From Dokdonia sp. PRO95 (GTDB taxonomy: Bacteria > Bacteroidota > Bacteroidia > Flavobacteriales > Flavobacteriaceae), in NCBI RefSeq assembly GCF_000355805.1, contig NZ_CM001837.1:3109966-3173965 (forward strand): a stretch of DNA of 64,000 nt, in the 5' to 3' direction. A program made the position numbers and the translations under genes. Shown here in pieces: positions 3,321-63,208 of this stretch. The notes beneath the pieces are model-generated. The model was not told where the DNA came from. It did no database searches and saw only the letters and a program-made list of their open reading frames with translations. Each line of letters opens with the position of its first letter. The stretch's first letter is position 1.

Positions 3321-3336
3321 CGCTTTCGCGAAAGCG
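3321..3336. repeat. palindrome CGCTTTCGCGAAAGCG (perfect copy)
   Basis: Perfect 16-bp copy of the dispersed palindrome, 22 bp after the stop of the first gene and between two convergent genes; extends to 18 bp with flanking A/T. Confidence 0.95.
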
Positions 3337-3414
3337 TGAAAAAGGAAATTTACCCCCTAAAAAAGAATCAAGTCTTAGTCTTTTACAACCTACACAAATT
3401 CAAAAATAGTACAC

Positions 3415-3446
3415 AAAAAAAGCTCCCAAATAGGGAGCTTTTTTTA
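3415..3446. terminator. bidirectional rho-independent terminator
   Basis: Stem AGCTCCC / GGGAGCT (3421-3427, 3433-3439) with loop AAATA, flanked by A7 on the left and T7 on the right. It sits between convergent genes and can serve both. Confidence 0.9.
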
Positions 3447-3487
3447 TGCATTAATGCGAGATTTTAAAGTCTTTCTATAAAGGATTA

Positions 3488-6400
3488 TTACAATCTTACA
3501 CCGAATCTAAAATCGATTCTCATACCATCTTCACCAGCAAACGCTCCTAGTTGGCCAGATACAGTATCTACCATATTTAACCAGAAACCTCCACCAAAGT
3601 TATTGTGCCACTTCTCACTATCTTCTCCATCAAGCCAAACACGACCTACATCTCCTCCGCCAAAAACACCTATCTGGATAGGAATCAATCCTGTAGAAAA
3701 TCTATTGAAACTATATCTCAAATCTGCCGAACCAGCTAGTGCTGATTCTCCTGTAAATCTATTAAATCTATATCCTCTCAAACCAGAATTTGCACCTAAA
3801 GATGCGGCTTGGTAGAACTCATAGTCATCACCTATGCGCACTTGAGCTTGCACAAGTGTTTTAAGGACTAACTTTCTGTTTTTAGACAAGGCATTATAAA
3901 ACCCTAATTTAGGATTTACATAAGCATACATTCTACTACCATCGCTTATATTGCGCTTTGCTCCTATTATTGTTGCAAAATCCATTCCTCTTGTGGGGTT
4001 AGCCTGGTTATCTGCACTTACATAGGTATAAGCTCCTTCTACGCCTATAAAAGATTGCCCTCCAAAGAAATTACTGCGATCTGGTGCAAATAAGCTAGCA
4101 TCATCTATCACTCGGCCACCTGTAGGTTCAATTTCAATACGCTCATAATTAAATACAAATCGCAATCTACTTCCAAAGGTGTTGTCACTTTCTACTCCTA
4201 TATGTGCGCCTACTTCCCCATTACGAACTCTATTGAAGTCTAACCCTAAATCATCATCATTATTTACAGTCTCGTTACCAAAACCAAAGAAGTTACGAGA
4301 AAAAGCTTCGTTTGTAAACTTACCTCCTACTATCAAGTTCCACTGCCCAAAAGCGTTTGCAAAATTCCCTTCATATTTTAAACTTAGGGACTCCGTAGCA
4401 AATGAATAAGTTCCATTTAGCGTATGCCTACTACTAAAAGGATCATTCTTAAAACCGTTAGTAGTAAACACATCATTTATTCCTATCAGAAAACCATCAT
4501 CAGGATTAAAACCTATAGCTGGTAAAATATTATTTGCATAACTCTTTTTCTTTAAGGGATCATAGGTGTTAAATGAATAAATATTTGACATTTTAAAACT
4601 TGCGCCTCCTTTTTCTTTTATCGTATTAGGCAATGTTTTGTGCTCATAAACCTTGAGGCGACGACCGTCTTTTATCTCGTAGATATCGTTGTTTTGTCCT
4701 CCTACAATTTTCATTCTTATAGGCGACTTTCCTTCTCCACTTACCTTAAAGCTATCATCATCATCAAGACCGTAAATCCATATCTCGCCAGTCTCATCAG
4801 AGTTTATAACACGATCTACAAAAGGAGTTTGAACTTCTCCATCTTTAATTCTTGATATCTGGACTCTAGTCTCCTTATCATTACGAGTAATTTCAAAATG
4901 ATCATCCTTATCTGTTCCTGTAAGTACTACTAGCGAAGCCAGATAATCATAATATTCACCTGCGATGTCAACAATGTTACCTCTACGTTCTTTAAGGCTT
5001 TTCTCAATCTCATCTACACCTACATCTTGAACTTCAAGAGGCAATTTTGTAAATGCTCTCGCGATATCTTCATCACTGAGATTATCTTGTATATATTGAG
5101 CTTGTGCTATCCAATCCTTCTTTACAGAATTCTTGGTGAGCACCCCACCAACCATTATTATACCTGCCTCGTTAATCCACTTTACATTTTCTAGATCTCC
5201 ATCATAATTTTGAAACTGTCTAGACGCTGGAATTAATGTTTTGAGTAATCCTAAAATAGCACCATCAAATTTTGAAAAAACCTGATCTCTATCTCTTGGA
5301 ATAGGCTTGTATATTTTTTTTCCATCACTATCAAAACGTGCCCATCTCCACTGGTCTGCGTGACGATCCCAGTCACCTATAAGCATATCAAAAATACGTG
5401 CTCGTAAATAGGAGTCTTCATCTACTTGATACTTCTCATCCTTACGTAAGTTTTCATAAAGATCATCTGTACTATCAATACTATCAGGGTTTCCAAAAGA
5501 AGGAACATCTAGAAAATCTTCGTCTGGGCGTTCTTCTATAATGTATAGTTCATTCCCGTACTCTGCATTGTACTTACCTAGTGCATCATGTTTGGGCACA
5601 TAAATTAAGCTAGGGTTTGTGTGATAAATACCCACTGCATCAGATAGCTCTGCCACCGCAAGGGAAGCATATGGATGTGCAGAAGTATAGAAATCTAAAA
5701 TTAAATCTTCTGTAAATGTATCTCTGAATTCTTCTTGAACAAAAACCTCTTTAAAAGCAACACTTTGTAGGAACTGCACTGCGCTCTTTCTCACTGCTCT
5801 TAAATTATAAGCTCTCCCATCTTTATCTTTAAGTCGTAAAGATCTCGTCTGGTGACCTCCACCCTTACGATCTACTGTAAAGCCGCCCATGAGTGTGTCT
5901 AGCGTAGCAACTTTAGCGGTTACTGGAGTTCCGTAAACAGCTCTATAATGATCTCCCCATAGTGACTCATGTACATCTGACACATCTGTATTATTCTGTG
6001 CATACACTGTAGCCATCACAGTCTCTGGATATATATCTGGTAGCGAATCTAAGTTTACTTCCTTACGAGGAGCAAAAACCTCTTTTGTATATAATAAAGT
6101 AGGTTCTCCTTGATTTGCCGCATAAAATCTTACAGATGAAGACTCATCTTCATATACGTCCAGAATAGCAAATCCCTGACCTCCGTAAGAAAACAAACCA
6201 TCGTCTCCTAAAGCTGCGGCACTGTTCTTTGCTCCTGCTCCGCTCACGATTTGCTTTATACCATCATGCTCTATATACTGGATACTATGCTCATGTCCTG
6301 ATGCAAAAATCACTTTATCTGTATCTCTCGCAAGTACAGAGATGCGCTGCATTAACTCATTATATTGCTTGTTATAGCGATCTTGAATTGACACTCCACC

Positions 6401-7213
6401 CTGTGATCTTACTTGGGTAACAAGAGACGCAAGAACAGGTAGTGGTAAATTACTCTGTGTAGGATACAATTGCTTTCTTATACCATACTTTCCACCATGT
6501 ATCCCATTTGTATACATCGGGTGGTGCATTACTACAAGAATAGTCTTTTCGTTATTCTTTTTGAACTCATTTTCTATTTCTAAAAATAAATCAGTTCTAT
6601 TCCTAATGTCACAATTATCATTAATTGTAGGATGCTTGTCCCAGTCTTCTAGATACCACTGTGTGTCTATAATCATTAACTCTACAGATTCACTTAAGCT
6701 TTTCATTTCAATAGGACACCCATTTTCAGGTTGAAATGCCTCCTTATCATCTAGCGCGTCTTCTATATACTTCTCTTGGCGCTTTACACCTTCTACGCCA
6801 TCTGCATACCAATCATGATTTCCTGGGATAAACATCGTTTTCCCCTTGAAGTTTTCGACTGCTGCTACTTGTATGTTTAATCTGCGCTCAGCTTCGGCTC
6901 TTTCTGGGTGTTTTTTTGATGGAAGTCCCGCATCATAAATATTGTCACCTAAAAAGATTGCATAGTCATTCTCTGTCTGTGCCGTGTCTATCACTTTCTT
7001 AAATGCGTCAAGAGCATAGGTGCTACCACCATCTTTATCTCCTCCTGCATCGCCTATGAGGTAGAAGGTTTTATGTATACGCTTTCGCGAAAGCGAACTA
7101 TTATCAAAACGAGAAGGCTCGCTTGACTCATCTGCATATTTAGGAGAATAAGTCGCACAACTACTAAGCAAAATGGCTACTGAGAAGTTAAGAAAACGGT
7201 AATATTTGTTCAT
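3488..7213 (-). CDS. lipoprotein-like calcineurin phosphoesterase / CotH-like kinase segment / Omp85 barrel fusion
   Basis: Encodes about 1241 residues. I start at the ATG at 7213, not the ATG at 7234, because it gives a lipoprotein signal (ILLSSC, Cys 19). Residues ~50-330 carry a complete calcineurin-like metallophosphoesterase set: GDAGG (54-58), GDN (89-91), GNHD (131-134), MHHP (~228) and GHEH (306-309). Residues ~445-700 hold a Gly-rich GGGHQT strand, LRAVRK, GDWDRH (613-618) and IPRDRDQVF (~638), which resembles the N-lobe, catalytic loop and metal-binding segment of CotH/Fam20/HipA-like kinases. Residues ~850-1241 form a surface-antigen/Omp85-like barrel with an LRGYR motif. Phosphoesterase and barrel assignments are family knowledge; the kinase reading is mine. 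A palindrome copy at 7080-7095 is read as LSRKR. Substrate unknown; most likely an outer-membrane enzyme. Confidence 0.9.
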   Translation of the reverse strand: MNKYYRFLNFSVAILLSSCATYSPKYADESSEPSRFDNSSLSRKRIHKTFYLIGDAGGDKDGGSTYALDAFKKVIDTAQTENDYAIFLGDNIYDAGLPSKKHPERAEAERRLNIQVAAVENFKGKTMFIPGNHDWYADGVEGVKRQEKYIEDALDDKEAFQPENGCPIEMKSLSESVELMIIDTQWYLEDWDKHPTINDNCDIRNRTDLFLEIENEFKKNNEKTILVVMHHPMYTNGIHGGKYGIRKQLYPTQSNLPLPVLASLVTQVRSQGGVSIQDRYNKQYNELMQRISVLARDTDKVIFASGHEHSIQYIEHDGIKQIVSGAGAKNSAAALGDDGLFSYGGQGFAILDVYEDESSSVRFYAANQGEPTLLYTKEVFAPRKEVNLDSLPDIYPETVMATVYAQNNTDVSDVHESLWGDHYRAVYGTPVTAKVATLDTLMGGFTVDRKGGGHQTRSLRLKDKDGRAYNLRAVRKSAVQFLQSVAFKEVFVQEEFRDTFTEDLILDFYTSAHPYASLAVAELSDAVGIYHTNPSLIYVPKHDALGKYNAEYGNELYIIEERPDEDFLDVPSFGNPDSIDSTDDLYENLRKDEKYQVDEDSYLRARIFDMLIGDWDRHADQWRWARFDSDGKKIYKPIPRDRDQVFSKFDGAILGLLKTLIPASRQFQNYDGDLENVKWINEAGIIMVGGVLTKNSVKKDWIAQAQYIQDNLSDEDIARAFTKLPLEVQDVGVDEIEKSLKERRGNIVDIAGEYYDYLASLVVLTGTDKDDHFEITRNDKETRVQISRIKDGEVQTPFVDRVINSDETGEIWIYGLDDDDSFKVSGEGKSPIRMKIVGGQNNDIYEIKDGRRLKVYEHKTLPNTIKEKGGASFKMSNIYSFNTYDPLKKKSYANNILPAIGFNPDDGFLIGINDVFTTNGFKNDPFSSRHTLNGTYSFATESLSLKYEGNFANAFGQWNLIVGGKFTNEAFSRNFFGFGNETVNNDDDLGLDFNRVRNGEVGAHIGVESDNTFGSRLRFVFNYERIEIEPTGGRVIDDASLFAPDRSNFFGGQSFIGVEGAYTYVSADNQANPTRGMDFATIIGAKRNISDGSRMYAYVNPKLGFYNALSKNRKLVLKTLVQAQVRIGDDYEFYQAASLGANSGLRGYRFNRFTGESALAGSADLRYSFNRFSTGLIPIQIGVFGGGDVGRVWLDGEDSEKWHNNFGGGFWLNMVDTVSGQLGAFAGEDGMRIDFRFGVRL
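7080..7095. repeat. palindrome copy inside coding sequence (read LSRKR)
   Basis: Perfect 16-bp copy within the N-terminal linker of the 3488-7213 gene, between the lipoprotein signal and the phosphoesterase domain. Confidence 0.95.
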
Positions 7214-7261
7214 GTCCTTGTTTTTAATGTACATTAGAGGTCTAACAGGCTTATAGTAACT

Positions 7262-8503: not shown

Positions 8504-8510
8504 AAAGTAA

Positions 8511-13301: not shown

Positions 13302-13317
13302 CGCTTTCGCGAAAGCG
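13302..13317. repeat. palindrome copy (perfect), intergenic
   Basis: Perfect 16-bp copy in the 160-bp gap between the EEP and MscS genes. Confidence 0.95.
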
Positions 13318-16974: not shown

Positions 16975-19035
16975 CTATTGGTTAATAGACTCTAAATCAA
17001 GCAAAAAGGCATAATCTTCGGCAATTTCTTTTAAGGCTTCAAAGCGTCCAGAAGCACCACCATGACCAGCATCCATATTACAATGAAACATGACTTTTGT
17101 ATCCGCAACGTTCATTTCTCTTAATTTTGCCACCCATTTTGCTGGTTCCCAGTATTGCACTTGACTATCATGATATCCAGTGGTTACAAAGATATTTGGA
17201 TACGCTTTCGCGAAAGCGTTGTCATAAGGACTGTAGCTCTTCATGTACTCATAGTATTCCTTTTCATTAGGATTACCCCACTCATCATACTCCCCTGTAG
17301 TAAGCGGAATAGTATCATCAAGCATCGTAGTTACTACATCTACAAATGGTACAGCAGCGATTACACCATTATAAAGCTCTGGCGCTATATTTATAATTGC
17401 ACCCATTAATAAACCTCCAGCCGAACCTCCATAAGCATATAAATGACTAGCCGAAGTATAAGACTTACTTATCAAATGTTTTGAAACATCAATAAAGTCT
17501 GTAAACGTATTCTTTTTCTTGAGGAGTTTTCCATCCTCGTACCATTTTCTACCTAAATATTCACCTCCTCTCACGTGAGCAATTGCATATATAAAACCAC
17601 GGTCTAAAAGAGATAATCTTATTGTAGAAAAAGAAGGATCTGTCGTACTTCCATAACTTCCATAAGCATACTGTAATAATGGAGCAGTACCATCTAGCTG
17701 CGTTTCTTTATGATAGATTATAGAGACAGGAACTTTAACGCCATCTTGAGCAGTTGCCCAGATGCGCTCCATATTATAATTATTTTTATCAAAGGTTCCA
17801 CCCAAAACCTCTTGCTCTTTGAGCACTACTTTTTCTTGGGTAACCATATTAAAATCTATGACAGACGCAGGTGTATTAAGAGCATTGTATGCATATCTTA
17901 AAATCTGCGTATCAAAATCGATATTTGTGGTAGGGTAAGCATCATAAGTTTCATTATCAAATGGCAAATAATAGCTTTCTGTATTGTCCCATCGCTTAAT
18001 GTGAATTTTATTCAAACCATTATTGCGCTCACTTACCACAAGAAAATCCTTGAAAATCTCTACATCTTCTAGTAGGGTATCATCACGGTGAGGTATAACA
18101 TCTACCCAATTTTCCATTCCAGTAGCAGAAACTGGCGTTTTCATCAGTTTAAAGTTGGTCGCCTTATCCTTATTAGTCTGTATATAAAAAGAATCGTCAT
18201 AATGAGATACTGCATACTCTAGCCCCCTTGTACGTTCTTGAAAAACCTTAAAATCAGTAGTCCCTTTTGCCGCAGATGCAAAACGAAATTCACTTGTCAT
18301 CGTACTGTCAGAACCTATCATAATATAGTCCTTAGACTTTGACTTAAAAACATACGTATAGAATGTCTCATCATTTTCTTGATAAACAAGCTCGTCTTTA
18401 CTTGGATCTGTACCTAAGGTGTGCTTAAATATTTGATTAGACCTTAACGTTTCTTCATCTTTACGCGAGTAATAAACGGTTTTATTATCGTTAGACCAAA
18501 CGGCACCACCAGTAGTATTTTTAATTTCAGCTGGATAAATTTCTCCAGTCTTGAGGTTTTTAAACCTTATTGTATACTGTCTTCTACTTACTGTATCTAT
18601 TCCAAAAGCAGCAATCATATTATCCTCAGATACAGCATAACTGGCTTGACTAAAATAAGAATGTCCTTCTGCCATTTTATTATTATCAAAAACAACAATC
18701 TCTTCACTATCTAAGCTAGCTTCTTTTCTACAATATAAAGGATAGTCTTTTCCAGTCTCAAAACGACGATAGTACCAAAAACCGTTGTGTTTATATGGCA
18801 CCGAGGAATCATCTTCTTTGATACGCCCTTTCATTTCTTCAAAAAGCGATTGCTGAAAGTCCTTAGTATGAGCTGTAAGTTTATGATAATATTCATTCTC
18901 TTGATTTAAATAATCAAGAACCTCAGGAGCATCACGCTCTTTCATCCAGAAATATTCATCAGTTCGAATGTCTCCGTGTTTTTCTAATTGTACGGGAATT
19001 TTATTAGCTACAGGAGGTAATATGGGCTTTGTCAA
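16975..19035 (-). CDS. S9 family oligopeptidase (PtrB-like)
   Basis: 686 residues from the TTG at 19035. That start reads (M)TKPILPP, which fits homologue N-termini; the farther TTG at 19071 overlaps a TATTTTTG promoter element and the next ATG would delete conserved HGDIRTDEYFW. N-terminal beta-propeller, then an alpha/beta-hydrolase domain with the nucleophile Ser in GGSAGG, the Asp in GYHDSQVQYW and the His in DAGHGGASGR. Oligopeptidase B cleaves short peptides after basic residues; it lacks a signal peptide here and is likely cytoplasmic. A palindrome copy (17203-17218) is read NAFAKAY inside the hydrolase domain without disturbing it. Single gene; no terminator seen downstream. Confidence 0.9.
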   Translation of the reverse strand: MTKPILPPVANKIPVQLEKHGDIRTDEYFWMKERDAPEVLDYLNQENEYYHKLTAHTKDFQQSLFEEMKGRIKEDDSSVPYKHNGFWYYRRFETGKDYPLYCRKEASLDSEEIVVFDNNKMAEGHSYFSQASYAVSEDNMIAAFGIDTVSRRQYTIRFKNLKTGEIYPAEIKNTTGGAVWSNDNKTVYYSRKDEETLRSNQIFKHTLGTDPSKDELVYQENDETFYTYVFKSKSKDYIMIGSDSTMTSEFRFASAAKGTTDFKVFQERTRGLEYAVSHYDDSFYIQTNKDKATNFKLMKTPVSATGMENWVDVIPHRDDTLLEDVEIFKDFLVVSERNNGLNKIHIKRWDNTESYYLPFDNETYDAYPTTNIDFDTQILRYAYNALNTPASVIDFNMVTQEKVVLKEQEVLGGTFDKNNYNMERIWATAQDGVKVPVSIIYHKETQLDGTAPLLQYAYGSYGSTTDPSFSTIRLSLLDRGFIYAIAHVRGGEYLGRKWYEDGKLLKKKNTFTDFIDVSKHLISKSYTSASHLYAYGGSAGGLLMGAIINIAPELYNGVIAAVPFVDVVTTMLDDTIPLTTGEYDEWGNPNEKEYYEYMKSYSPYDNAFAKAYPNIFVTTGYHDSQVQYWEPAKWVAKLREMNVADTKVMFHCNMDAGHGGASGRFEALKEIAEDYAFLLDLESINQ
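17203..17218. repeat. palindrome copy inside oligopeptidase gene (read AFAKA)
   Basis: Perfect 16-bp copy in the coding sequence, read in the AFAKA phase on the minus strand. Confidence 0.95.
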
Positions 19036-19060
19036 AGTATTTTGTTTTAAAAACTGCTTG

Positions 19061-19068
19061 CAAAAATA
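19061..19068 (-). promoter_or_regulatory. -7 element TATTTTTG
   Basis: Matches TAnnTTTG, 25 bp before the TTG at 19035; it makes the farther TTG (19071) an unlikely start. No obvious -33. Confidence 0.5.
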
Positions 19069-19123
19069 CAACGCGTACGGTTAACTATTTTCCATTCTTG
19101 TAAATAGCTTCATAATCATTTAA

Positions 19124-22038: not shown

Positions 22039-22054
22039 CGCTTTCGCGAAAATG
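22039..22054. repeat. palindrome copy (right arm degenerate)
   Basis: CGCTTTCGCGAAAATG, core intact; it directly abuts the stop codon of the metalloprotease gene. Confidence 0.85.
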
Positions 22055-26886: not shown

Positions 26887-26902
26887 CGCTTTCGCGAAAA
26901 CG
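26887..26902. repeat. palindrome copy (one base off)
   Basis: CGCTTTCGCGAAAACG, in the 187-bp gap between the sigma-factor gene start and yidC end. Confidence 0.9.
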
Positions 26903-28915: not shown

Positions 28916-28931
28916 CGCTTTCGCGAAAGCG
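28916..28931. repeat. palindrome copy (perfect), pyrG-yidC gap
   Basis: Perfect 16-bp copy between pyrG stop and yidC start; it would lie in any pyrG-yidC mRNA and could fold as a hairpin. Confidence 0.95.
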
Positions 28932-32268: not shown

Positions 32269-32284
32269 CGCTTTCGCGAAAGCG
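32269..32284. repeat. palindrome copy (perfect), upstream of guaB
   Basis: Perfect 16-bp copy 38 bp before the guaB start. The rest of the gap 32232-32568 holds only AT-rich sequence and an AGGAG-like stretch before the next gene. Confidence 0.95.
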
Positions 32285-35365: not shown

Positions 35366-36725
35366 CTGTAAATGGTATAATCCAATTTTTATGAGCAAAT
35401 GAATCTTCTATTTGCGCGAGATCCACTTTAGGATCAACATAAGCGGTACTTAACCTTCCATTGAGAGCAACATAAGACTCAACGTAGACTTCTACCTCTT
35501 GATGACCTTGCCCCTCAAAATGGTCGCGAAGATAGTGAGCATATTCTAAAATAAAGTCTGGTTGGAAGCTCATTTGCTTTTCTTGCAGTGGCGTTAAGAA
35601 ATCTGTATTATCTACATAAAATCGCTTTCCGCTTACGCCGTCTACTATTTTAAATTGTGCATAGCCAGATTTTTCCATAAGCATCACTCTCCATGAAAAT
35701 CTGTAACCTTCTTCTGTCCAAAATAACTCCCCAGGATACGCGAGGTTACGCCATGGCAAGAGCAGTTGTATAGTAAAAAACACTGCTACTATGACTACAG
35801 AAGTCCTTGCTAGATTAGAATTTTTAGGTACATAGCGCTGTTTAGTTTGTAATAACTGTTGTGGGTATTTTACCGCTTTCGCGAAAGCGTAAATAATCTT
35901 TTTATGAAAACCTGCATCAAAGAAAATCAACGCACTCACTATCATCACATACGGAAACATCCCGATAGGAAATAGTACTCGGGTGAGCACATGGAAGATA
36001 ATTACCATGATAAATGCAAAAGTTCTAGACTTACGCCAGAGCAGAAAAAATGGAATAAATAAGTCATATCCCGCTCCAAACCAGCTAAAAACATATTGCA
36101 CCCATTCCTCTCCCAGCAAGTTTCCTATAAATGGAATATCAAACTTAGAGGGTAACCAGATTTTAAGCGGCATAGCCTTAATGAGCCAGTCGCTATTAAG
36201 TTTTGCTAGGCCAGCATACACATACACTATCCCCAGAAGTAGTTTTATACTATCTATAGTCCAACGAGGCACAAACTGTATAGGTGTTATGGTACGCTTT
36301 CGCGAAAGCTGTAACGCATCAATCGAAAAATAAGAACCTGCAGGTATAAAAATCATCAGGAAACTAAGCATACTGATGAAGTAGTAGTGATTGAGATACA
36401 TGGTTTTATCCATGAGCTCTATGTAAGTAAAGCTTAAAAAGAAGACAATGATTGCCAAACGGTATTTATAACCTAGGGTAATCATGATCGTACTTAACGC
36501 ACATATCGCAAATAATAAGTAGGTATAATTCCCAAAAGGACGCACCCACTCAAAACCATAAAATGTAAAATGAAAGGATGGCGCAATATAGAATTTTTCA
36601 ATCCATCCGTAACTCCAGAATCTGATGAGACTGGCTAGCATGAGCAGCCCAAAAGACACACGAAAGACCGCTAGTGGTGCGGCCTCTCTTTGTGTATTTA
36701 AATATCTTTTGACTTGCTGTATCAT
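35346..36725 (-). CDS. HTTM-domain membrane protein (vitamin K-dependent carboxylase-like)
   Basis: 459 residues with 8-10 predicted membrane helices across ~15-330 and a soluble C-terminal tail. The HTTM family is related to the gamma-glutamyl carboxylase; the conserved region around DKTMYLNHYYF is present and resembles the substrate-helix motif of that family. In Bacteroidota it is repeatedly found between imelysin and TonB-receptor genes, as here (8 bp from the imelysin stop and overlapping the receptor start), which suggests a part in handling an iron-related ligand. Two palindrome copies fall inside: 36295-36310 read QLSRKRT and 35874-35889 read YAFAKAV. Activity is unknown. Confidence 0.85.
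   Translation of the reverse strand: MIQQVKRYLNTQREAAPLAVFRVSFGLLMLASLIRFWSYGWIEKFYIAPSFHFTFYGFEWVRPFGNYTYLLFAICALSTIMITLGYKYRLAIIVFFLSFTYIELMDKTMYLNHYYFISMLSFLMIFIPAGSYFSIDALQLSRKRTITPIQFVPRWTIDSIKLLLGIVYVYAGLAKLNSDWLIKAMPLKIWLPSKFDIPFIGNLLGEEWVQYVFSWFGAGYDLFIPFFLLWRKSRTFAFIMVIIFHVLTRVLFPIGMFPYVMIVSALIFFDAGFHKKIIYAFAKAVKYPQQLLQTKQRYVPKNSNLARTSVVIVAVFFTIQLLLPWRNLAYPGELFWTEEGYRFSWRVMLMEKSGYAQFKIVDGVSGKRFYVDNTDFLTPLQEKQMSFQPDFILEYAHYLRDHFEGQGHQEVEVYVESYVALNGRLSTAYVDPKVDLAQIEDSFAHKNWIIPFTDEIKGL
35874..35889. repeat. palindrome copy inside HTTM gene (read AFAKA)
   Basis: Perfect 16-bp copy in the coding sequence. Confidence 0.95.
36295..36310. repeat. palindrome copy inside HTTM gene (read LSRKR)
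   Basis: CGCTTTCGCGAAAGCT, one terminal base off; read in a different phase from the copy 420 bp away in the same gene. Confidence 0.92.
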
Positions 36726-39835: not shown

Positions 39836-39851
39836 CGCTTTCGCGAAAGCA
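39836..39851. repeat. palindrome copy (terminal base off)
   Basis: CGCTTTCGCGAAAGCA, between the terminator of the helicase gene and the haem-binding gene promoter. Confidence 0.92.
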
Positions 39852-42916: not shown

Positions 42917-42932
42917 CGCTTTCGCGAAAATG
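42917..42932. repeat. palindrome copy (right arm degenerate)
   Basis: CGCTTTCGCGAAAATG in the 125-bp gap between the Sua5 and CCA genes. Confidence 0.85.
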
Positions 42933-44764: not shown

Positions 44765-45556
44765 TTAATTTGTTACTGCTGCCATAGTTTCAGCAGTGGT
44801 CTTTTCTTCTAGATTATTTTTTTTAAACATGTTGATTGTATAATCTAGTAACTCCTTGTTCCCTCTACCTCCATGTCCTGGGATTACCAGTAGTACTTTT
44901 GGATAATGGTTTTGTAGTGTAGTTACCGTATTTGACCATTCATCAAGGTTTGCATCTTCTAGATTTCCTTTTGTTCCATCTAATGGCTTGATCATACAAC
45001 CTCCTAATAAAATATCTGATGCTTGTATGTATGCAATGGAGTTATCATCACTATGAGCAGGACCAAGATATTCCAAAATGATAAAGTTTTTGGCTATCTG
45101 TATGCTGTCTTTTTGTAAAAATGAATTGCTCACTGCAACGGAATCTTGAGCTAGTAATGCCGCTGTTTTGGCAGAAGCGTAGGTGGGGATTTTTGCTTTC
45201 GCGAAAGCGTTAATACCACCAGCTCCATCCATATGCGAGTGACTTACTTGCACCCCTTTTATAGTTGCCTTTAAGTCTTCTTGTACAAATGCGATAAGCT
45301 GCTCAGAAAGAGTATCATTTATAGGTGTGTCAAAAATAAATGCCTCACCTTCTTGAACGCGTATATAACCGTTACAAGGAATATAACCTCCATGTTGATC
45401 TTGTAGAAAAGAAACATGAATGTAATCTTGCTCAGATAATTTTATGATTTCCAGAGATCTTACGTATGGCTGTGGATCATACTTACTATTATCAAAACAG
45501 GAGTTTAATAGTAGTACGGCTAGACAGATCCCTAACATCTGTAGTAGTCGACGCAT
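44765..45556 (-). CDS. subclass B1-type metallo-beta-lactamase lipoprotein
   Basis: 263 residues. Lipoprotein signal (VLLLNSC, Cys ~20). Zinc ligands match B1 enzymes: HSHMDG (HxHxD), GPAHSDDN (third His), GGCMIKPLDG with the B1-specific Cys, and PGHGG (last His). The stretch GNLEDANLDEW and IPTYASAKT strongly resemble IMP-type enzymes. It would hydrolyse beta-lactams including carbapenems in the periplasm if active; the lipid anchor is unusual among B1 enzymes, though known in NDM. A palindrome copy (45194-45209) codes NAFAKAK just after the zinc motif with no change in spacing from IMP. It overlaps no neighbour but lies 7 bp from the helicase stop. Activity untested. Confidence 0.85.
   Translation of the reverse strand: MRRLLQMLGICLAVLLLNSCFDNSKYDPQPYVRSLEIIKLSEQDYIHVSFLQDQHGGYIPCNGYIRVQEGEAFIFDTPINDTLSEQLIAFVQEDLKATIKGVQVSHSHMDGAGGINAFAKAKIPTYASAKTAALLAQDSVAVSNSFLQKDSIQIAKNFIILEYLGPAHSDDNSIAYIQASDILLGGCMIKPLDGTKGNLEDANLDEWSNTVTTLQNHYPKVLLVIPGHGGRGNKELLDYTINMFKKNNLEEKTTAETMAAVTN
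45194..45209. repeat. palindrome copy inside metallo-beta-lactamase gene (read AFAKA)
   Basis: TGCTTTCGCGAAAGCG, one terminal base off; codes the helix right after the HxHxD motif. Confidence 0.92.
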
Positions 45557-47040: not shown

Positions 47041-47056
47041 CGCTTTCGCGAAAGCG
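47041..47056. repeat. palindrome copy (perfect), just after permease stop
   Basis: Perfect 16-bp copy between the permease stop (47062) and its terminator. Confidence 0.95.
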
Positions 47057-50045: not shown

Positions 50046-51101
50046 CTACTTCTGTTCTTTATTAAAGTACACTAAGTAATAATACATTTGCTTTTCTTCA
50101 TCCCATCCTTTTTCAACAAACTTCTCTGCACTTTCTCCATTTACAAAGTCTAGCTTAATTTGAATATTGGTATCAAGTGAGATAAGACTTTTTATCTTTT
50201 TGCGCTGGGCTGTTACGGCCTTGTTGCTTATAGAGAAATCGGTGAGATCTTCTATTTTATATTTTGGAGATTGCTCTGTTTTATAATTACGAAACTCTGG
50301 TATCAGATCTGGATTTTCAATCACCTCATTCATAAAAGCCGACTCATCAAAGGTGTCATTTTTTGCAAAGTGATTTACTGCACGGTTCATAAACAGCACT
50401 TCTTCCTTTTTATCCTCTGCTGGTAGTACAACGTCTTTTGCAAAGTCTTGACAAAATTTTAAGTACTTCTTCGTGTAAAAAGTTTCGTCTTCAAAAATCT
50501 CTACACCTAAGAAATTCTCTAGCCAGTACTTTGTATCATAGCGATTAGAATCTACAGAGAGTACTTTGTACCCCTCCTCTTCTTTATGGTTAAAGATTAA
50601 ACACCCTTTATCAAGTTTATTAAGGTTAATCCCTTGCTCAAGAATCATCTCGAGGTTTGTCCCGCTTTCGCGAAACTGTAAGAAATCTTGTTTTAACTCG
50701 CTCTTAAAGATACCTATCGCGTCTGTTTTCAAGTTATCTATTTGTACCCCTTCTAAGTGAACGATGTATAATTCTCCCGGCTTAATATGTGGGTGGTCAC
50801 TTTGAGCATAGAGATGCTTTGCGATATCTTCAGAAAGTAAGTGAGTACCGCTAGGATTATCAAAAATTTTCTTTGCAAGTCCAAAGAGCGTATTAAACTC
50901 AATGTCTTGCTCATGAAAGAACTTATAATAATTCTCCTCTTTCTCACGAAAAGGCTTAAAGAAAAACTCCTTAATAAGTGGCGTAAGTTCGTCGCTTAGT
51001 GGATATGGATCTTGAGATACAAAAAGCCCTTCTGCTTTACCTTTATTCCCAACACGGTGAATGGAAAGTGATTCTATCTGGGCACTATATAAGTTTATCA
51101 T
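50046..51101 (-). CDS. nucleoid-associated protein, NdpA/YejK (37-kDa) family
   Basis: 351 residues, standard for the family. The landmark sequence SLSIHRVGNKGKAEGLFVSQDPYPL and the later FCQDFAKDVV place it in the 37-kDa nucleoid-associated protein family (YejK/NdpA). These proteins associate with the nucleoid and may modulate topology; detailed activity is unclear. A palindrome copy (50663-50678) is read LQFRESG in the middle of the gene, the third phase in which this repeat is used. The gene is separated from the convergent kinase-like gene by a shared terminator, and its start lies 70 bp from the end of the pRiA4b-type gene on the same strand. Confidence 0.88.
   Translation of the reverse strand: MINLYSAQIESLSIHRVGNKGKAEGLFVSQDPYPLSDELTPLIKEFFFKPFREKEENYYKFFHEQDIEFNTLFGLAKKIFDNPSGTHLLSEDIAKHLYAQSDHPHIKPGELYIVHLEGVQIDNLKTDAIGIFKSELKQDFLQFRESGTNLEMILEQGINLNKLDKGCLIFNHKEEEGYKVLSVDSNRYDTKYWLENFLGVEIFEDETFYTKKYLKFCQDFAKDVVLPAEDKKEEVLFMNRAVNHFAKNDTFDESAFMNEVIENPDLIPEFRNYKTEQSPKYKIEDLTDFSISNKAVTAQRKKIKSLISLDTNIQIKLDFVNGESAEKFVEKGWDEEKQMYYYLVYFNKEQK
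50663..50678. repeat. palindrome copy inside NdpA-family gene (read RFRES phase)
   Basis: CGCTTTCGCGAAACTG; right arm degenerate, core intact; read FRES. Confidence 0.85.
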
Positions 51102-51736: not shown

Positions 51737-52789
51737 CTACGCAGGAGAGACAGCTCCCCTTTTTGGGAAACTTTCTAACAATACGTAGAATTGTGCGCCA
51801 AATAATAGTGACGAGATCACAAGGTGTAAAGGTTGCGTACCAAATGGAAAATCTATATAGTACATGGCAATCCCAGTAACAACCTCAAGAGCTATAAAAA
51901 TAAGCACCCAGTTAAGCAACTTGGTATGACCTAGTGATAGGCTTCTGCTACGCCAGAAAATATAAAGATTTAATAACGTTACGAGTATTGAAAAAGATCT
52001 GTGCACATAAAACCAAAGGGTTGCAGGGTTAAGCCATAACTCTTTTGCTTCATAGCCTACTTGAGCAACGCGCTCGTCTACATATTGACGTACTTGAGTT
52101 CCCAGCGCAATCTGTACAAGCGTGAGAATACTTGCTATGATTATTAAGTTCTTAAAACGAGGATCATAAATACGCTTTCGCGAAAGCGCATCCTGCATAC
52201 CTTCCTTGATCTGAGATTTCCACCATAAGAATAACAATAAGGCTACAATAAATAACGCCGCTATCATGTGAATCGTAATCTTCACAGGAAGTAAATTTGA
52301 ATCTACCACTTGCTTCCCTAGCCATGCTTGAAAAAGCATGAGAGGTAACACCATGAACGTGGCAAAAATGAGCCATTTATTACCTTTCCAATACCAGAAA
52401 GCAAGGATAACCATAAGTAACATAGGGATTCCTGCAAGTGCAGTTACAAGCCTGTTTATATACTCTATCCAAGTATGCCATACGTTAAAACTAGCATAGT
52501 CGTGCTTATCATAAGTATCCCAGTTTGCCTCGTTGAAAGTCTCTCCAGAAGTAAAATCTGTAGGAGCAATACGCAAGGATTCCTCTAGTATGATTACTTG
52601 TCCGTCTTCATACAGATGGTTAGGTTCCCATCGCAGCTCACTCTCCTCTGTAGGTGGCACCAGATAACCAAAACACTGCGGCCAGTCTGGACATCCCATA
52701 CCACTTCCCGTCATACGCACCACCGCTCCTGCAATGATAATTAAGTATAGAAATATAATGGATATTTTAAGGAGGCGTCTGTACCACAT
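51737..52789 (-). CDS. ctaA: haem A synthase (CtaA/COX15)
   Basis: 350 residues from the ATG at 52789; an earlier start would lie over the promoter. Eight membrane helices are predicted, with the two-fold repeat of this family. Landmarks: AGAVVRMTGSGMGCPDWPQCFG (described here as the loop with the conserved Cys pair), HTWIEYINRL for a haem-ligand His/Glu helix, and HMIAALFIV and HRSFSIL for later His ligands. It oxidises haem O to haem A for cytochrome c oxidase in the inner membrane. A palindrome copy (52173-52188) is read ALSRKRI in a loop between helices. It shares a transcript with the pRiA4b-type gene. Confidence 0.93.
   Translation of the reverse strand: MWYRRLLKISIIFLYLIIIAGAVVRMTGSGMGCPDWPQCFGYLVPPTEESELRWEPNHLYEDGQVIILEESLRIAPTDFTSGETFNEANWDTYDKHDYASFNVWHTWIEYINRLVTALAGIPMLLMVILAFWYWKGNKWLIFATFMVLPLMLFQAWLGKQVVDSNLLPVKITIHMIAALFIVALLLFLWWKSQIKEGMQDALSRKRIYDPRFKNLIIIASILTLVQIALGTQVRQYVDERVAQVGYEAKELWLNPATLWFYVHRSFSILVTLLNLYIFWRSRSLSLGHTKLLNWVLIFIALEVVTGIAMYYIDFPFGTQPLHLVISSLLFGAQFYVLLESFPKRGAVSPA
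52173..52188. repeat. palindrome copy inside ctaA (read LSRKR)
   Basis: Perfect 16-bp copy in a soluble loop of haem A synthase. Confidence 0.95.
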
Positions 52790-52810
52790 AAATGCTCTTT
52801 TTAGGAGGTG

Positions 52811-52818
52811 CAAAAATA
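52811..52818 (-). promoter_or_regulatory. -7 element TATTTTTG
   Basis: Exact TAnnTTTG match 21 bp before the ctaA ATG, supporting the start at 52789. No clear -33. The rest of the gap 52819-53088 shows no gene. Confidence 0.5.
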
Positions 52819-57290: not shown

Positions 57291-57292
57291 CC

Positions 57293-57308
57293 TATTTTCG
57301 CGAAAGCG
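57293..57308. repeat. palindrome copy (left arm degenerate)
   Basis: TATTTTCGCGAAAGCG, core intact, between the DUF2911 stop and its terminator. Confidence 0.8.
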
Positions 57309-57320: not shown

Positions 57321-58169
57321 TTACATAGCTCCCCATTCTTTTAGAGAGTCCATATTCATCTTGATATAATCTTGATTCTTTGCTTTCTTAGCTCCTTCTA
57401 GAGATGCTTTTGCTGCCTTGATAGCACCTTTTTTATTGCCCACTTTTGCAAGTAATAAAGACTGCTGGCGTAGTTGCCAGAACTTAGGGTCTTTGTTCAT
57501 AGCCATTGCTTTCTCCATATAAGTGTTGGCTTTTTCTAGAGATTGCCCAGTGCTTGAAAGGTATACTGCTGCTGCATAGTAATCGCCCACGCCCGCTCCA
57601 CCCATCATTTTATCAATCTGAGCCATTACAGTCTCGTTTGCTGGTACATTAAAAGGTACTGCAACATACGTTTTATCCCACTGCATTGTTAAGTGTGCAC
57701 CATCATTATTAATGTGGTTGATGCCCATAGTAAATGACTCTGCAGCCATATTAGTAGTCTGCACTTTTGCTGTAAACGTAGCTGCTACTTTACTTTCATC
57801 CCAAGTTGCTGGAGTTCCCCAGTTGCTTGTATCTGTATAAAAATATACTTCCCATGCATCTTGCATAGGCTTTGTGTATATAGCATAAGAACCTGCTTTA
57901 AGCTCTTTCCCTCCTACTGTTACTGGAGTAGAAAAACTTACTGTAGAATTTGCATTTGCTCCCGTACGCCACATTGCACCGTAAGGAACTAGATCTCCCA
58001 TAATAGTACGTCCTCTCATAGCTGGACGTGAGTATTCTAGTGTAACATCTGTAAGACCTACAACTTGCATCACTTTGGCCGCTGGGCTAGGTGCTGGTGT
58101 GTCAATTTGTGCAGTAACTCCAGCAGTCATAAGACCTAAGAAAGCTACAAAAAGTAATTTTTTCATCAT
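57321..58169 (-). CDS. DUF2911 secreted protein with C-terminal helical repeat
   Basis: 282 residues from the ATG at 58169 (an adjacent ATG at 58166 is equally possible); the longer frame at 58241 is rejected because it reads through a palindrome copy and lacks a signal. Sec signal MMKKLLFVAFLGLMTAG, then a DUF2911 beta domain with SPAAKVMQVVGLTDVTLEYSRP and RTGANANSTVSFS, followed by a helical, TPR-like tail (ANTYMEKAMAMNKDPKFWQLR). The family is abundant in marine Bacteroidota, periplasmic, and has no known activity. A TATTTTTG at 58222-58229 is a plausible promoter -7, which puts a palindrome copy in its 5' leader. Confidence 0.85.
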   Translation of the reverse strand: MMKKLLFVAFLGLMTAGVTAQIDTPAPSPAAKVMQVVGLTDVTLEYSRPAMRGRTIMGDLVPYGAMWRTGANANSTVSFSTPVTVGGKELKAGSYAIYTKPMQDAWEVYFYTDTSNWGTPATWDESKVAATFTAKVQTTNMAAESFTMGINHINNDGAHLTMQWDKTYVAVPFNVPANETVMAQIDKMMGGAGVGDYYAAAVYLSSTGQSLEKANTYMEKAMAMNKDPKFWQLRQQSLLLAKVGNKKGAIKAAKASLEGAKKAKNQDYIKMNMDSLKEWGAM

Positions 58170-58198
58170 TGTTGTTTTATTAGTTAAGGTGCTTTTTA

Positions 58199-58214
58199 CG
58201 CTTTCGCGAAAAAG
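58199..58214. repeat. palindrome copy in leader of DUF2911 gene (right arm degenerate)
   Basis: CGCTTTCGCGAAAAAG, core intact, immediately downstream of a TATTTTTG -7 (58222-58229), so near the transcription start. Confidence 0.85.
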
Positions 58215-58221
58215 TCTCTCA

Positions 58222-58229
58222 CAAAAATA
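58222..58229 (-). promoter_or_regulatory. -7 element TATTTTTG
   Basis: Exact TAnnTTTG match 53 bp before the DUF2911 ATG; it rules out the longer annotated start. The remaining gap up to 58487 contains the inverted repeat described next and no gene. Confidence 0.5.
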
Positions 58230-58420
58230 AGGCGTTCTCAAAGGCTAAGTGTTAACAAAATCTTAATATCAACGCATTCTCTTAAAAAGGATTACTACTG
58301 TTTATTCATATAATTTGTTTGAAATTTTGCACTCACTATTGACGCAGCCGCCTACTTAACGTACCTCTGAAGTCCTCAACTCATAAGTCTGGAAACCGAA
58401 AGTTATTTTAATTTAATTTT

Positions 58421-58451: not shown

Positions 58452-58487
58452 TTTTGATTGTATTTTTAAACTTTCAATAAAGAGCCT

Positions 58488-58997: not shown

Positions 58998-59025
58998 CTG
59001 CATTACCGCAATAACAAACAATATT

Positions 59026-59724: not shown

Positions 59725-59753
59725 ACCCCTACATTTATTAATAATGGGTGGTA

Positions 59754-59769
59754 CGCTTTCGCGAAAGCG
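59754..59769. repeat. palindrome copy (perfect), SDR-photolyase gap
   Basis: Perfect 16-bp copy in the 110-bp gap; it creates the false upstream extension of the photolyase frame (read VRFRES). Confidence 0.95.
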
Positions 59770-59834
59770 TAAAACTCATTTTCACAAGGCTCAGAGATGC
59801 GATTAGTATCTTTGAGCTTTCTTATGCAACAACT

Positions 59835-61145
59835 ATGAGCAGTAATAAAGTAAATATTTTTTGGTTTCGTCGTGATTTACGATTAGATGATAACGTAGGA
59901 TTTCTTGAAGCACTAAAAGGTGATCTACCAGTACTTCCTATCTTCATTTTTGATAAAGAAATTCTCGATAAATTACCAAAAGATGATGCTCGTGTGACGT
60001 TCATTTTTGAAACGCTCCAAAGAATGCGCAGCACATTGCAGGATGAGTATGGTAGCTCGCTAGCCATGTATTATGACACGCCAGAAAAGATTTTCAAGCA
60101 GCTTAGTAAAGATTATGAGATTACTACGGTTTTTACAAATCGTGATTATGAGCCATATGCAAAGGAGAGAGATGAAGCGATTACTTCATTGCTAGAAGAA
60201 AATGATATTGAATTCAAGACCTTCAAAGATCAAGTGATTTTTGAAAAAGACGAGGTGGTTAAAGGCGATGGTGATCCTTACGTAGTCTACACACCGTTTA
60301 AGAATAAGTGGAAAGAACGCTTTGATGCAGATAAAGATCTTACCATACACTATACTTCCCAGCATCTCCACAATCTTATAGAACACAGTCGCCTGCCTAA
60401 TCTGAGTTTATCAGACATGGAGTTTGAAAAATCATCTATTGAAGTTCCTGAGTATGACGTCACTCCTACTCTTATCCAGAATTATGAAGATACACGCAAC
60501 TTCCCTGCGCAAGATGGCACCTCACATTTAGGTCCGCATTTGCGTTTTGGGACGGTGAGTGTGCGTAAAATGATGAAAAAAGCCATCGCTGAAACCAATG
60601 AGATTTTCTGGAGCGAACTCATATGGAGGGAGTTTTTTATGCAAATTCTGTATCACTTTCCACATACAAAGGATAAAGCCTTCAGATCAAAATACGACCG
60701 TATAGACTGGCGCAATAACGAAGATGAATTTGAGAAGTGGAAAAATGGTGAAACTGGTTACTTACTAGTAGATGCTGGTATGCGCGAGCTCAACGCTACG
60801 GGATATATGCATAATAGAGTGCGTATGCTGGTGGCGAGCTTTTTGTGCAAACACTTACTTATAGACTGGCGATGGGGAGAAACCTATTTTGCTGAAAAAT
60901 TATTGGATTACGACATGAGTTCAAACGTAGGAAACTGGCAGTGGGCAGCAGGTTCTGGAGTGGATGCAGCACCTTACTTCCGCATATTTAATCCTATGAC
61001 GCAGGTGGATAAATTTGACAAGCAAAAAGAATACATCTCAAAGTGGATTCCAGAGCATGACACAGATAAGTATCCTGAGAAAATGGTAGATCACAAAGAA
61101 GCTAGAGAGCGTTGTTTGAAGACGTATAAGGAAGCGGTGGCTTAG
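59835..61145 (+). CDS. phrB: deoxyribodipyrimidine photolyase, class I / cryptochrome family
   Basis: 436 residues from the ATG at 59835; the earlier frame start at 59748 is an artefact of the palindrome. N-terminal alpha/beta domain for the antenna cofactor (NIFWFRRDLRLDDN), then the helical FAD domain with HLGPHLRFGTVS, WSELIWREFFMQIL, GYMHNRVRML and NWQWAAGSGVDAAPYFRIFNP. Class I CPD photolyase repairs UV-induced pyrimidine dimers using blue light. Members of the DASH or (6-4) branches are alternatives, but the motif set points to the CPD type. It closes the SRPBCC-SDR-photolyase operon and ends one base before a palindrome copy. Confidence 0.93.
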   Translation: MSSNKVNIFWFRRDLRLDDNVGFLEALKGDLPVLPIFIFDKEILDKLPKDDARVTFIFETLQRMRSTLQDEYGSSLAMYYDTPEKIFKQLSKDYEITTVFTNRDYEPYAKERDEAITSLLEENDIEFKTFKDQVIFEKDEVVKGDGDPYVVYTPFKNKWKERFDADKDLTIHYTSQHLHNLIEHSRLPNLSLSDMEFEKSSIEVPEYDVTPTLIQNYEDTRNFPAQDGTSHLGPHLRFGTVSVRKMMKKAIAETNEIFWSELIWREFFMQILYHFPHTKDKAFRSKYDRIDWRNNEDEFEKWKNGETGYLLVDAGMRELNATGYMHNRVRMLVASFLCKHLLIDWRWGETYFAEKLLDYDMSSNVGNWQWAAGSGVDAAPYFRIFNPMTQVDKFDKQKEYISKWIPEHDTDKYPEKMVDHKEARERCLKTYKEAVA

Positions 61146-61147
61146 TA

Positions 61148-61163
61148 CGCTTTCGCGAAAGCG
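61148..61163. repeat. palindrome copy (perfect), just after photolyase stop
   Basis: Perfect 16-bp copy starting two bases after the photolyase stop codon. Confidence 0.95.
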
Positions 61164-61299
61164 CAACTACATAGGTAGTAAAATTCAAAAACCTTACAAA
61201 ATAAAATAGGTTTAACAACGCTGCCAAAATTTTCATAAAGAACACATAATTACTTTTGACGCGTCTCGTACTTACTAGAGATTTGTTTTAAAAATAATT

Positions 61300-61707
61300 A
61301 TGAAAACAACAACTATAGCAAAAATACTAACCATAATAACCATTGTGGCAATAGGGTATTTTGCATTACCAAAACTGATAGGCCTTGAACAAAGCGTTAA
61401 AGGTTTTTCTAATTTTAATGAGGTCATAGGAATTCCTAACAACATTGCGAGATACGTGACGGGGTTTGTAGAGTTAATAACGGCTATACTACTTATACTC
61501 TCGCTTACGCTTACAAGAAAAAGAGAGGTTACTCATATTTTAGGTTATTTACTACTAACGGGAACAATGCTGGGAGGCCTACTTACGGAGTATTTAATAC
61601 GTCCCGAGCCTAAAATGATGCTCGTATATATTGCCATAGCTTTGCTTATAATTGCTGTGTACCAACTTCTTAATACCTATACACTTAAAACCGAAAACCA
61701 TGACTAA
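61300..61707 (+). CDS. DoxX-like small membrane protein
   Basis: 135 residues with four membrane helices at ~8-25, ~50-70, ~80-98 and ~105-125, which fits the DoxX family in length and layout; LPKLIGLEQSVKGF is typical of the first loop. DoxX proteins have been tied to oxidative or thiosulfate-linked electron transfer, but the role in this operon is unknown. Its stop overlaps the start of an SDR gene by 8 bp (ATGACTAA), so the two are translationally coupled and probably cooperate. No terminator is seen between them. Family call is moderately firm; weak conservation in this family limits certainty. Confidence 0.75.
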   Translation: MKTTTIAKILTIITIVAIGYFALPKLIGLEQSVKGFSNFNEVIGIPNNIARYVTGFVELITAILLILSLTLTRKREVTHILGYLLLTGTMLGGLLTEYLIRPEPKMMLVYIAIALLIIAVYQLLNTYTLKTENHD

Positions 61708-62437: not shown

Positions 62438-62448
62438 TTTTCTTTTTA

Positions 62449-62464
62449 CACTTTCGCGAAAATG
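62449..62464. repeat. palindrome copy (both arms degenerate)
   Basis: CACTTTCGCGAAAATG; core intact; 11 bp after the SDR stop. The rest of the gap 62438-62641 holds no gene that I can see. Confidence 0.75.
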
Positions 62465-62641
62465 TGCTTGTTAAAAACACATTTTTAAGCGCTTCGCTCT
62501 CTATGCCAATTCATTATATATTTAGATCGAATAAACGGGAACAGATTTTAAAACGAATCAGGAGTTCCTTTAGCTATTAGGAAGGGTATTTCTTTTATAT
62601 CATGGGCTATAGTACATAAATTTGAGAAAAATATCAAAAAT

Positions 62642-63028
62642 ATGAAGGTACACGTTTTTTTAGGAGAGTTTAAAACTAGAAAAGACGCTACATCATATAC
62701 TGAATCATATTGGGAACCTGAACCTGATGAATCTGTATCTGATAGAGATTACGAAATATGGGAAAATAGTAATCCAAAATGGAAAATGAAATCTGATTTA
62801 AACTGTTATTTGGATGGAGATTTTATTGAAACAATTACTGAGGGTAACAAATTTGAATATCTATGTGGAATGATACAAAACCCAGAAAGCATAAAACATT
62901 TAAAAACAGAACTAAACAAGAAAGTACTTGTTTTAATATTTGAAAAGGGAATAAATAGTCAAAAATCTAAATTAAAATCAACTGAGGTTTTAGAATATAT
63001 AGGAGTTTTTGAAAGTACTTTGAAATAA
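62642..63028 (+). CDS. small orphan protein, possibly immunity-like (Imm22-like)
   Basis: 128 residues, cytoplasmic by lack of signals. It begins KVHVFLGEFKTRKDATSYTE and contains DLNCYLDGDFIETI, which loosely resembles the SMI/Imm22-type immunity proteins; length is also similar. No toxin gene is next to it, so if it is an immunity protein it is an orphan or a relic. It is AT-rich, flanked by 200-bp gaps without genes, and its start has no clear ribosome site, all consistent with a recent or decaying insertion. I would treat the family call as a weak hint; the sequence could belong to an unrelated small family. Confidence 0.45.
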   Translation: MKVHVFLGEFKTRKDATSYTESYWEPEPDESVSDRDYEIWENSNPKWKMKSDLNCYLDGDFIETITEGNKFEYLCGMIQNPESIKHLKTELNKKVLVLIFEKGINSQKSKLKSTEVLEYIGVFESTLK

Positions 63029-63192
63029 AACATCCGTTAGACTACATATCCACACTCCAACCCTGCTAGAGCTTAGCTAATTTCAAACTTTAAATAATAT
63101 AGGTTTACCCTTATAACAAGTAACGGCTTCCTTAAAAAGATTACACATAACTCCAAATAATACTAGTATGTTGCTGTAACCTTTCTTCATTA

Positions 63193-63208
63193 TTCTTTCG
63201 CGAAAGCT
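63193..63208. repeat. palindrome copy (left arm degenerate)
   Basis: TTCTTTCGCGAAAGCT; core intact; ~35 bp before the small membrane protein gene. Confidence 0.8.

Follow-up and report, generated by a model that had tools for sequence, protein, structure and literature searches.

The chromosome of Dokdonia sp. PRO95, a member of the Flavobacteriaceae, carries about a thousand copies of a palindromic DNA element, and the distances between them are much more regular than chance would produce. The palindrome was noticed in a preliminary description of a 64,000-nucleotide stretch of this chromosome (contig NZ_CM001837.1, positions 3,109,966 to 3,173,965; hereafter referred to as the window). Its core, TTTCGCGAAA, which occurs most often as CGCTTTCGCGAAAGCG, was found 1018 times in the single-contig genome of 3,305,093 bases, about once per 3.2 kb, against 10 occurrences of the reversed-pattern control. 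In a 464-kb sample of the same genome (20 stretches of 20 kb and the window) we counted 135 cores, and every 20-kb stretch contained 2 to 9 of them. The claim that the site is chromosome-wide is thus borne out, the count being neither near random nor confined to the window; relatives were counted as well, and five of 299 family genomes proved to be rich in the core. The even spacing, the flanking arms, the carriage by phages and the restriction to three genera described below go beyond the preliminary description. A search of the literature by titles and listings found no description of the motif in Flavobacteriaceae; one may be in print all the same.

The unit is larger than the preliminary description had it. 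It consists of a palindrome of 16–22 bp flanked by two arms, each rich in G/T and poor in C on the 5′ side of its strand; it spans about 40–50 bp in total and has the consensus TTACGCTTTCGCGAAAGCGTAA. Arm and column statistics were taken from the 134 of the 135 sampled cores that had full flanks. Per-base conservation was 82–90% in CGC/GCG and about 61–67% in TTA/TAA, and self-complementarity extended over at least 16 bp in 75 of the 134 copies. Beyond the inner palindrome the left side was poor in C and rich in G and T to about position −20 or −25, and the right side was its mirror image. The keto fraction at positions −20 to −11 was 0.68 in PRO95 (genome G000) and 0.74 in G242, a carrier of another genus (g11), and 0.51 and 0.505, respectively, further out. 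The arms were present in coding and intergenic copies alike and also in g11, where T peaked at −11, −14, −17 and −20/−21; the corresponding peaks in PRO95 were weaker, and in G190, a carrier with a guanine-plus-cytosine (GC) content of 46%, the arms and outer positions were weaker. The left and right arms of one copy were uncorrelated (r of −0.08 and 0.10), and individual copies are therefore not one-sided.

The core was strict. One-mismatch cores, summed over all positions, numbered 33 in the 464-kb sample, against 135 exact ones. Outside the elements, the inner motifs were close to their Markov expectations (CGCG, 413 against 384; TCGCGA, 41 against 34; TTCGCGAA, 3 against 3.8), and half sites were slightly above theirs (GCGAAAGCG, 5 against 1.3; CGCGAAAG, 11 against 5.3), beside 135 whole sites. 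The enriched entity is the whole unit and not its inner core; the near-background frequency of the inner motifs elsewhere and the strictness of the core are consistent with only the whole site being functional. In the same sample CCGCGG (1 against 12.7 expected) and TTCGAA (21 against 116) were strongly depleted, as if they were avoided restriction sites.

The copies in the two genomes tested, G000 and G242, were distributed far more evenly than by chance, at about one per 3–5 kb. In a set of 120 gaps of G000, taken from the first 100 listed genome places and from the window, gap lengths had a coefficient of variation (CV) of 0.67, and six gaps were shorter than 1 kb, against 30.7 under random placement. 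Since gene structure by itself imposes some order, we also used a strict null model in which no gene or intergenic gap could receive more than one site (400 simulations). Under this model, 10 of 114 gaps in G000 were shorter than 1 kb, against 24.8 expected (lowest simulation, 11), with a CV of 0.60 against 0.85; for G242 the corresponding values were 1 of 89 gaps, against 15.6 (lowest simulation, 7), and 0.40 against 0.81. Very close pairs do exist, the closest in G000 having cores 27 bp apart. Among the large gaps, those of 9.8 and 14.7 kb contain very long open reading frames (ORFs; 3214 codons, and 1751 and 1633 codons, respectively), and one of 10.6 kb looks ordinary. In 200 kb of Escherichia coli DNA, 50 Chi sites were clustered, with a CV of 1.37. 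Thus, even spacing is not a property of every frequent motif.

The five core-rich genomes among the 299 sampled from the family contained 559–1107 copies and belong to three genera, and the highest count in any other genome was 34. They are PRO95 itself (1018 copies) and G206 (1107) in Dokdonia, G242 (700) and G010 (595) in g11, and G190 (559) in genus g191; the genome samples were drawn evenly from larger groups. When the 14-mer GCTTTCGCGAAAGC was counted in 395 genomes of the order, a sample without G242 and G190, it occurred 794 times in G000, 857 times in G206 and 578 times in G010, and at most 16 times elsewhere. Among 394 genomes of the phylum, a sample without the other carriers, G000 again had 794 copies and no other genome had more than 6. 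Several genomes of the large genus g128 (for example G544, G315 and G446) had 1–6 copies of the 14-mer, with 0–1 of the control. The nearest named relatives by YidC were two Dokdonia metagenome-assembled genomes (MAGs; 98% and 92% identity), in which stretches of about 20 kb contained 6 and 7 copies; the remaining 78 named loci had fewer than two. A tree built from 100 YidC rows united Dokdonia and G190 in one supported clade and placed g11 apart on a long branch, so that the carrier state requires two changes on this tree, which may reflect two gains, a transfer or many losses.

Blocks of the element also occur in non-carrier genomes. In G076, 17 of the 26 cores lie within 80 kb of one contig (C3), as do all ten listed places of its 16 14-mers, and the genomes G160 (contig C1) and G101 (contig C1) have copies with the same 933-bp pair spacing as G076. 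The shared block (loci L182–L187, L191 and L193) encodes a resistance-nodulation-division (RND) efflux protein (PF00873), an outer-membrane efflux protein, a heavy-metal P-type ATPase and a multicopper oxidase, families that were read in G076 and assigned in G160 and G101 by similarity. The blocks look like metal-resistance DNA that probably moved horizontally from a carrier.

Copies of the element keep their position while their surroundings diverge. Between the window and the Dokdonia MAG L001, whose longest match is about 79% identical in DNA, six of seven aligned cores were identical, against 15.6% of the other 10-mers and 7.8% of those lying 26–60 bp away. In the comparison with L003 all six aligned cores were identical, against 46.6% of 10-mers. 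Between G000 and the g11 samples, 88 orthologue pairs were compared; in six of them both members had a site, and in three of these six it lay at the homologous place, twice in proteins of about 90% identity and once in a protein of 48% identity. The enzymes encoded by L133 (G000) and L176 (g11) share about 90% identity, whereas their neighbours share 53–81%, and the palindrome is at the same codon in both, which may reflect transfer or strong conservation.

Some of the coding copies clearly were not inserted. For 19 of the 66 coding copies in the sample, the alignment to a homologue spanned the site, the homologue set including carriers and non-carriers. L134_734 aligned without gaps to a site-free homologue from the non-carrier Confluentibacter (62% identity), and L127_13085, L138_13457 and L138_15451 aligned in the same way to site-free g11 proteins at 65%, 46% and 32% identity, respectively. 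Because of these ungapped alignments, we conclude that the four sites arose by substitution. Other coding copies are located in or beside segments of variable length, and their origin is less clear.

The element is also present on phages. When viral contigs were scanned, the 16-mer was found in 41 stretches from 30 records, 22 of the 41 with a single core. The 22 records that were counted whole had 2 to 8 cores each; the other eight, with one core per stretch examined and a GC fraction of 0.48–0.67, may be chance hits. For 20 proteins taken from four of the viral records, 15 matched known families, including terminase, portal, major head protein, head protease, tape measure, baseplate hub, sheath and one integrase. 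Because of the terminase, portal, head and tail-type matches, we take these records to be phages, and at least one of them, L086, is probably temperate, given the integrase among its genes. Matches to named phages of Cellulophaga, Winogradskyella and Flavobacterium suggest flavobacterial hosts. A 36-base consensus searched against named phages and plasmids matched two mycobacterial phages, over 17 bases, but no plasmid, at an E-value that would miss shorter true matches.

Seven phage records taken as distinct, some of them distant relatives, contained 37 sites in 232,825 bases, with a gap CV of 0.61 against 0.88 in simulations (P 0.006). Thirty-seven phage sites with different flanks had arms with a keto fraction of 0.68, as in the chromosome. 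The core was found at the same place in phage pairs of only 64–69% identity (L095/L110, L095/L106, L085/L101, L112/L118 and L095/L113, the first two being in effect one comparison), whereas other 10-mers survived between these phages at 2–3% in most pairs and at 24% in one. One further site of L101 was not kept in L085, and the related phages L108, L096 and L094 had a one-base change at one such place. Selection of the records by the 16-mer inflates the density of sites on them; its effect on how often positions are shared should be much smaller.

Of the 135 copies in the sample, 66 were in coding DNA, which made up 90.5% of the sequence, and 69 in the remaining 9.5%, making the element about ten-fold denser between genes. 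The 66 coding copies were divided among the three reading phases as 16, 15 and 35, in agreement with the earlier statement that all three are tolerated; the 35 read FAK, mostly AFAKA. In the intergenic gaps of G000, 46 tandem, 15 divergent and 6 convergent copies were counted in 28.3, 9.6 and 4.1 kb, or 1.62, 1.56 and 1.46 per kb, respectively. These equal densities indicate that neither promoters nor terminators are favoured. The g11 gaps had 22 tandem, 14 divergent and 2 convergent copies in 23.9, 11.8 and 7.7 kb, fewer in convergent gaps, with small counts.

In the window, the reported number of 22 cores was confirmed exactly; dinucleotide shuffles gave a mean of 0.09 and a maximum of 1. 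Eleven copies match the 16-mer perfectly, four have one mismatch, four have two and three have more, so that the reported 11 perfect copies and three with an end-base change were also recovered, within a one-mismatch total of four. The preliminary description had placed 15 copies between genes and 7 within them. Mechanical gene calls gave 13 and 9, and our best count is 14 and 8. The difference between our two counts is the site at 59757, counted as intergenic because the site precedes the probable start of the photolyase gene, whose Pfam domain starts only at ORF residue 37.

The perfect intergenic copies lie at 3321–3336, 13302–13317, 28916–28931 (between yidC and the next gene, with a copy in the same gap of G206), 32269–32284, 47041–47056 and 61148–61163, the last directly after the photolyase gene. 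A further perfect copy, at 59754–59769, is inside the listed ORF 59748–61145, probably upstream of the true photolyase start. The other perfect copies are within ORFs, at 7080–7095 (ORF 3488–7234, phosphoesterase-like, read LSRKR), 17203–17218 (ORF 16975–19071, prolyl oligopeptidase), 35874–35889 (ORF 35346–36725, HTTM/gamma-carboxylase-like) and 52173–52188 (ORF 51737–52813, COX15/CtaA). The copies with one mismatch are at 26887–26902 and 39836–39851, both intergenic, 36295–36310 (again in ORF 35346–36725) and 45194–45209 (ORF 44765–45556), the mismatch being at an end in all but the first. Those with two are at 22039–22054 and 42917–42932, both intergenic, 50663–50678 (ORF 50046–51101, NA37 nucleoid-associated family) and 58199–58214, near the start of ORF 57321–58241 (DUF2911). 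Three intergenic copies, at 57293–57308, 62449–62464 and 63193–63208, have an intact core and more than two mismatches to the 16-mer. The cores kept in both L001 and L003 are those at 22039, 28916, 32269, 35874 and 36295; that at 17203 is kept in L001, and that at 26887 is kept in L003 and altered in L001 to TTTTGCGAAA, the sole change among the seven. The gene with two copies (35346–36725) encodes a protein with HTTM and vitamin K-dependent gamma-carboxylase lumenal domains, here in a marine bacterium.

Several candidate proteins and enzymes were compared between carriers and non-carriers, in 20 genomes including all five carriers for ParB, the methyltransferases, NA37 and the Y1 transposases, and in 14 genomes for AddB. 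Each carrier has a single ParB, and in an alignment of 16 proteins one variable column near the end separates the carriers from the 11 others; a ParB/Noc-type binder was rejected on these grounds. No canonical parS with up to two mismatches was found in 655,887 bases of PRO95 sequence (overlaps counted twice). Methyltransferases of family PF01555 exceeded the cut-off among carriers only in G190 and G010, none doing so in G000, G206 or G242, and C5 methyltransferases (PF00145) were matched among carriers only in G000, G206 and G010, with no match in G190 or G242. At G000:C1:2994546-2996633 two C5 DNA methyltransferase domains are adjacent, possibly as part of a restriction-modification locus. 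Y1/RAYT (REP-associated tyrosine) transposases of family PF01797 were found in 7 of the 20 genomes, namely in three carriers and 4 of the 15 non-carriers, and are absent from G000 and G190. AddB, considered as the source of a new Chi specificity, was present in all 14 genomes, and the carriers did not group. Its alignment column 419 is tyrosine in 5 of 5 carriers and phenylalanine in 9 of 9 non-carriers, a conservative difference that may be due to chance. The NA37 (YejK-like) family was found in 19 of the 20 family genomes, against 1 of 14 control genomes.

We tentatively favour the reading that a putative homodimeric, sequence-specific protein binds the element in the cell and that one site every few kilobases benefits resident DNA, be it chromosome or prophage; we judge its chances to fall a little short of even. 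From the element itself, its spacing, its conservation, its presence on phages and its restriction to three genera, we infer a dimer, an action inside the cell and a benefit. The protein would bind the symmetric element as a homodimer contacting about two helical turns on each side, as suggested by the symmetry, the strictness of the whole unit and the arms without partial sites. A bound site every few kilobases may serve the folding, segregation or topology of the chromosome, or mark DNA for repair; because the spacing is even, one site per few kilobases, and no more, would be needed, and the fact that phages conserve their sites suggests that it is resident DNA that is affected. A bolder and less probable form of this reading, which we regard as doubtful, is that the element, about 50 bp with its putative dimeric binder, constitutes a new kind of genome-wide spacing code needed on all resident DNA of some marine Flavobacteriaceae, so that their phages could persist in these hosts only by taking on an element with identical arms and spacing. 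Several observations speak against the favoured reading. No binding protein emerged among the candidates: ParB is practically unaltered, and NA37, encoded at 50046–51101 of the window, is not associated with the element, being found in 19 of 20 genomes whether or not they are carriers. Two Nonlabens phages without an annotated integrase have no sites (their host may or may not be a carrier), and the sites of the other phages, at least one of which is probably temperate, may have been acquired while the phages were resident, as DNA uptake would also allow. The density on phages is inflated, the records having been picked for the 16-mer. The evenness result covers G000 and G242 only (the 14 and 20 gaps sampled in G190 and G206 being too few for a test), and even spacing has also been claimed for uptake sequences by Karlin et al., as cited in PMC1939737, whose author considers these sequences less even than a role in compaction would need.

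The main rival to this reading is that the palindrome is a DNA-uptake sequence, preferred by a surface receptor for natural transformation and spread by biased uptake and recombination, as in Neisseria and Haemophilus. We consider it possible but unlikely. Like the DNA uptake sequence (DUS) of Neisseria and the uptake signal sequence (USS) of Pasteurellaceae, the element has about 1000 copies, a core with flanking tracts and both coding and intergenic sites, about half of them coding, in all frames and some clearly made by substitution; the even spacing claimed for USS (PMC1939737) would fit as well. Riemerella, assigned by its authors to Flavobacteriaceae, is naturally competent with unusual machinery (PMC8459023), and R. 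columbina is reported to favour its own DNA (PMC7965970). The same-place sites in three of the six G000/g11 pairs with a site in both members (88 compared) are compatible with exchange, and uptake would explain most of the chromosomal facts and, through prophages, part of the phage facts. However, known uptake sequences are not palindromes (PMC1939737), and they differ from our element in its few near-miss cores (33 against 135 exact) and in its carriage and conservation by phages, whose retention of sites over deep divergence a transformation drive explains for prophages only. A bidirectional repair signal resembling Chi, at which a helicase-nuclease arriving from either side would read the palindrome and RecA would be loaded on the G/T-rich 3′-ended strand beyond it, seems improbable to us. 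It would explain the G/T-rich strands, which are placed where RecA loading would be expected for an enzyme coming from either side, a feature shared with Chi. The T peaks of g11 at −11, −14, −17 and −20/−21 resemble the triplet step of RecA on DNA, Chi sites in E. coli have a similar density (50 in 200 kb), and phages would profit. RecA prefers TGG repeats (PMC3763553). The element is, however, palindromic and long, unlike Chi, and evenly spaced where E. coli Chi is not; half sites are few, though one half should serve each direction, and carrier AddB proteins do not group, one conservative column separating the five from nine others.

The preliminary description had called the palindrome HIP1-like, after the highly iterated palindrome 1 of cyanobacteria. 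The part of this claim that holds is a short palindrome occurring chromosome-wide far above expectation (1018 against 10). HIP1 and the alternate HIPs (GCGATCGC) are palindromic, chromosome-wide and lineage-limited, as is our element, and PMC4390886 describes a GC-rich centre besides and a model, with a DNA methyltransferase and mismatch repair making and maintaining the sequence, that also predicts saturation at a set density. HIP1-like methylation is not supported in the form proposed, the unit size differs, and we give an origin of this type very little credence. HIP1 is about 8 bp around an enzyme site of 4–6 bp, whereas the Dokdonia element, with 16–22 bp and long arms of one-sided composition, exceeds such a site (4–8 bp), is evenly spaced and has an inner core that is not enriched outside the unit, CGCG and TCGCGA being near background there; the two methyltransferase families, PF00145 in three of five carriers and PF01555 over the cut-off in two of five, do not track it and are missing from some carriers. 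A mobile repeat or a transcription terminator has been largely refuted, and we give it next to no weight. REP (repetitive extragenic palindromic) elements and bacterial interspersed mosaic elements (BIMEs), which are associated with RAYT transposases, are palindromic, mostly extragenic and present in hundreds of copies. The ten-fold higher density between genes, the Y1 transposases in three of five carriers and the coding copies in or beside variable-length segments would agree with such an origin. So would hairpin formation: the three copies tried can fold as DNA with about −6 kcal/mol, although shuffled sequences do nearly as well (z −1.3 to −1.6). However, about half of the Dokdonia copies are coding, some align without gaps to site-free homologues, and the Y1/RAYT transposases are absent from two of the five carriers, G000 and G190, in accord with the earlier statement that this is not a mobile repeat. 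Intrinsic terminators have a T run after the palindrome, which is lacking here; on either strand the sequence is T-rich before the palindrome and A-rich (A/C-rich) after it, the reverse of a terminator, and gene ends are not preferred, convergent, tandem and divergent gaps being equally dense. A gyrase or topoisomerase site was considered as a further candidate reading. Finally, parS and the Noc-binding sites are palindromes of 16 and 14 bp bound by dimeric ParB-type proteins; the Dokdonia element differs from them in its approximately 1000 chromosome-wide sites, with ParB single and practically unaltered in the carriers.

Evenly spaced, strict and symmetric sites on both the chromosome and phages give an unusual opportunity to study how bacteria measure their DNA or mark it as their own. 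If the spacing-code reading is true, the element would serve as a self mark or anchor the chromosome structurally. Because the carriers fall into three genera on two separate branches, a clean comparison of gene presence is possible, and the blocks in non-carrier genomes suggest that it can be used as a tag for DNA of carrier origin. Dokdonia strains can be cultivated, so that the binder could be isolated directly.

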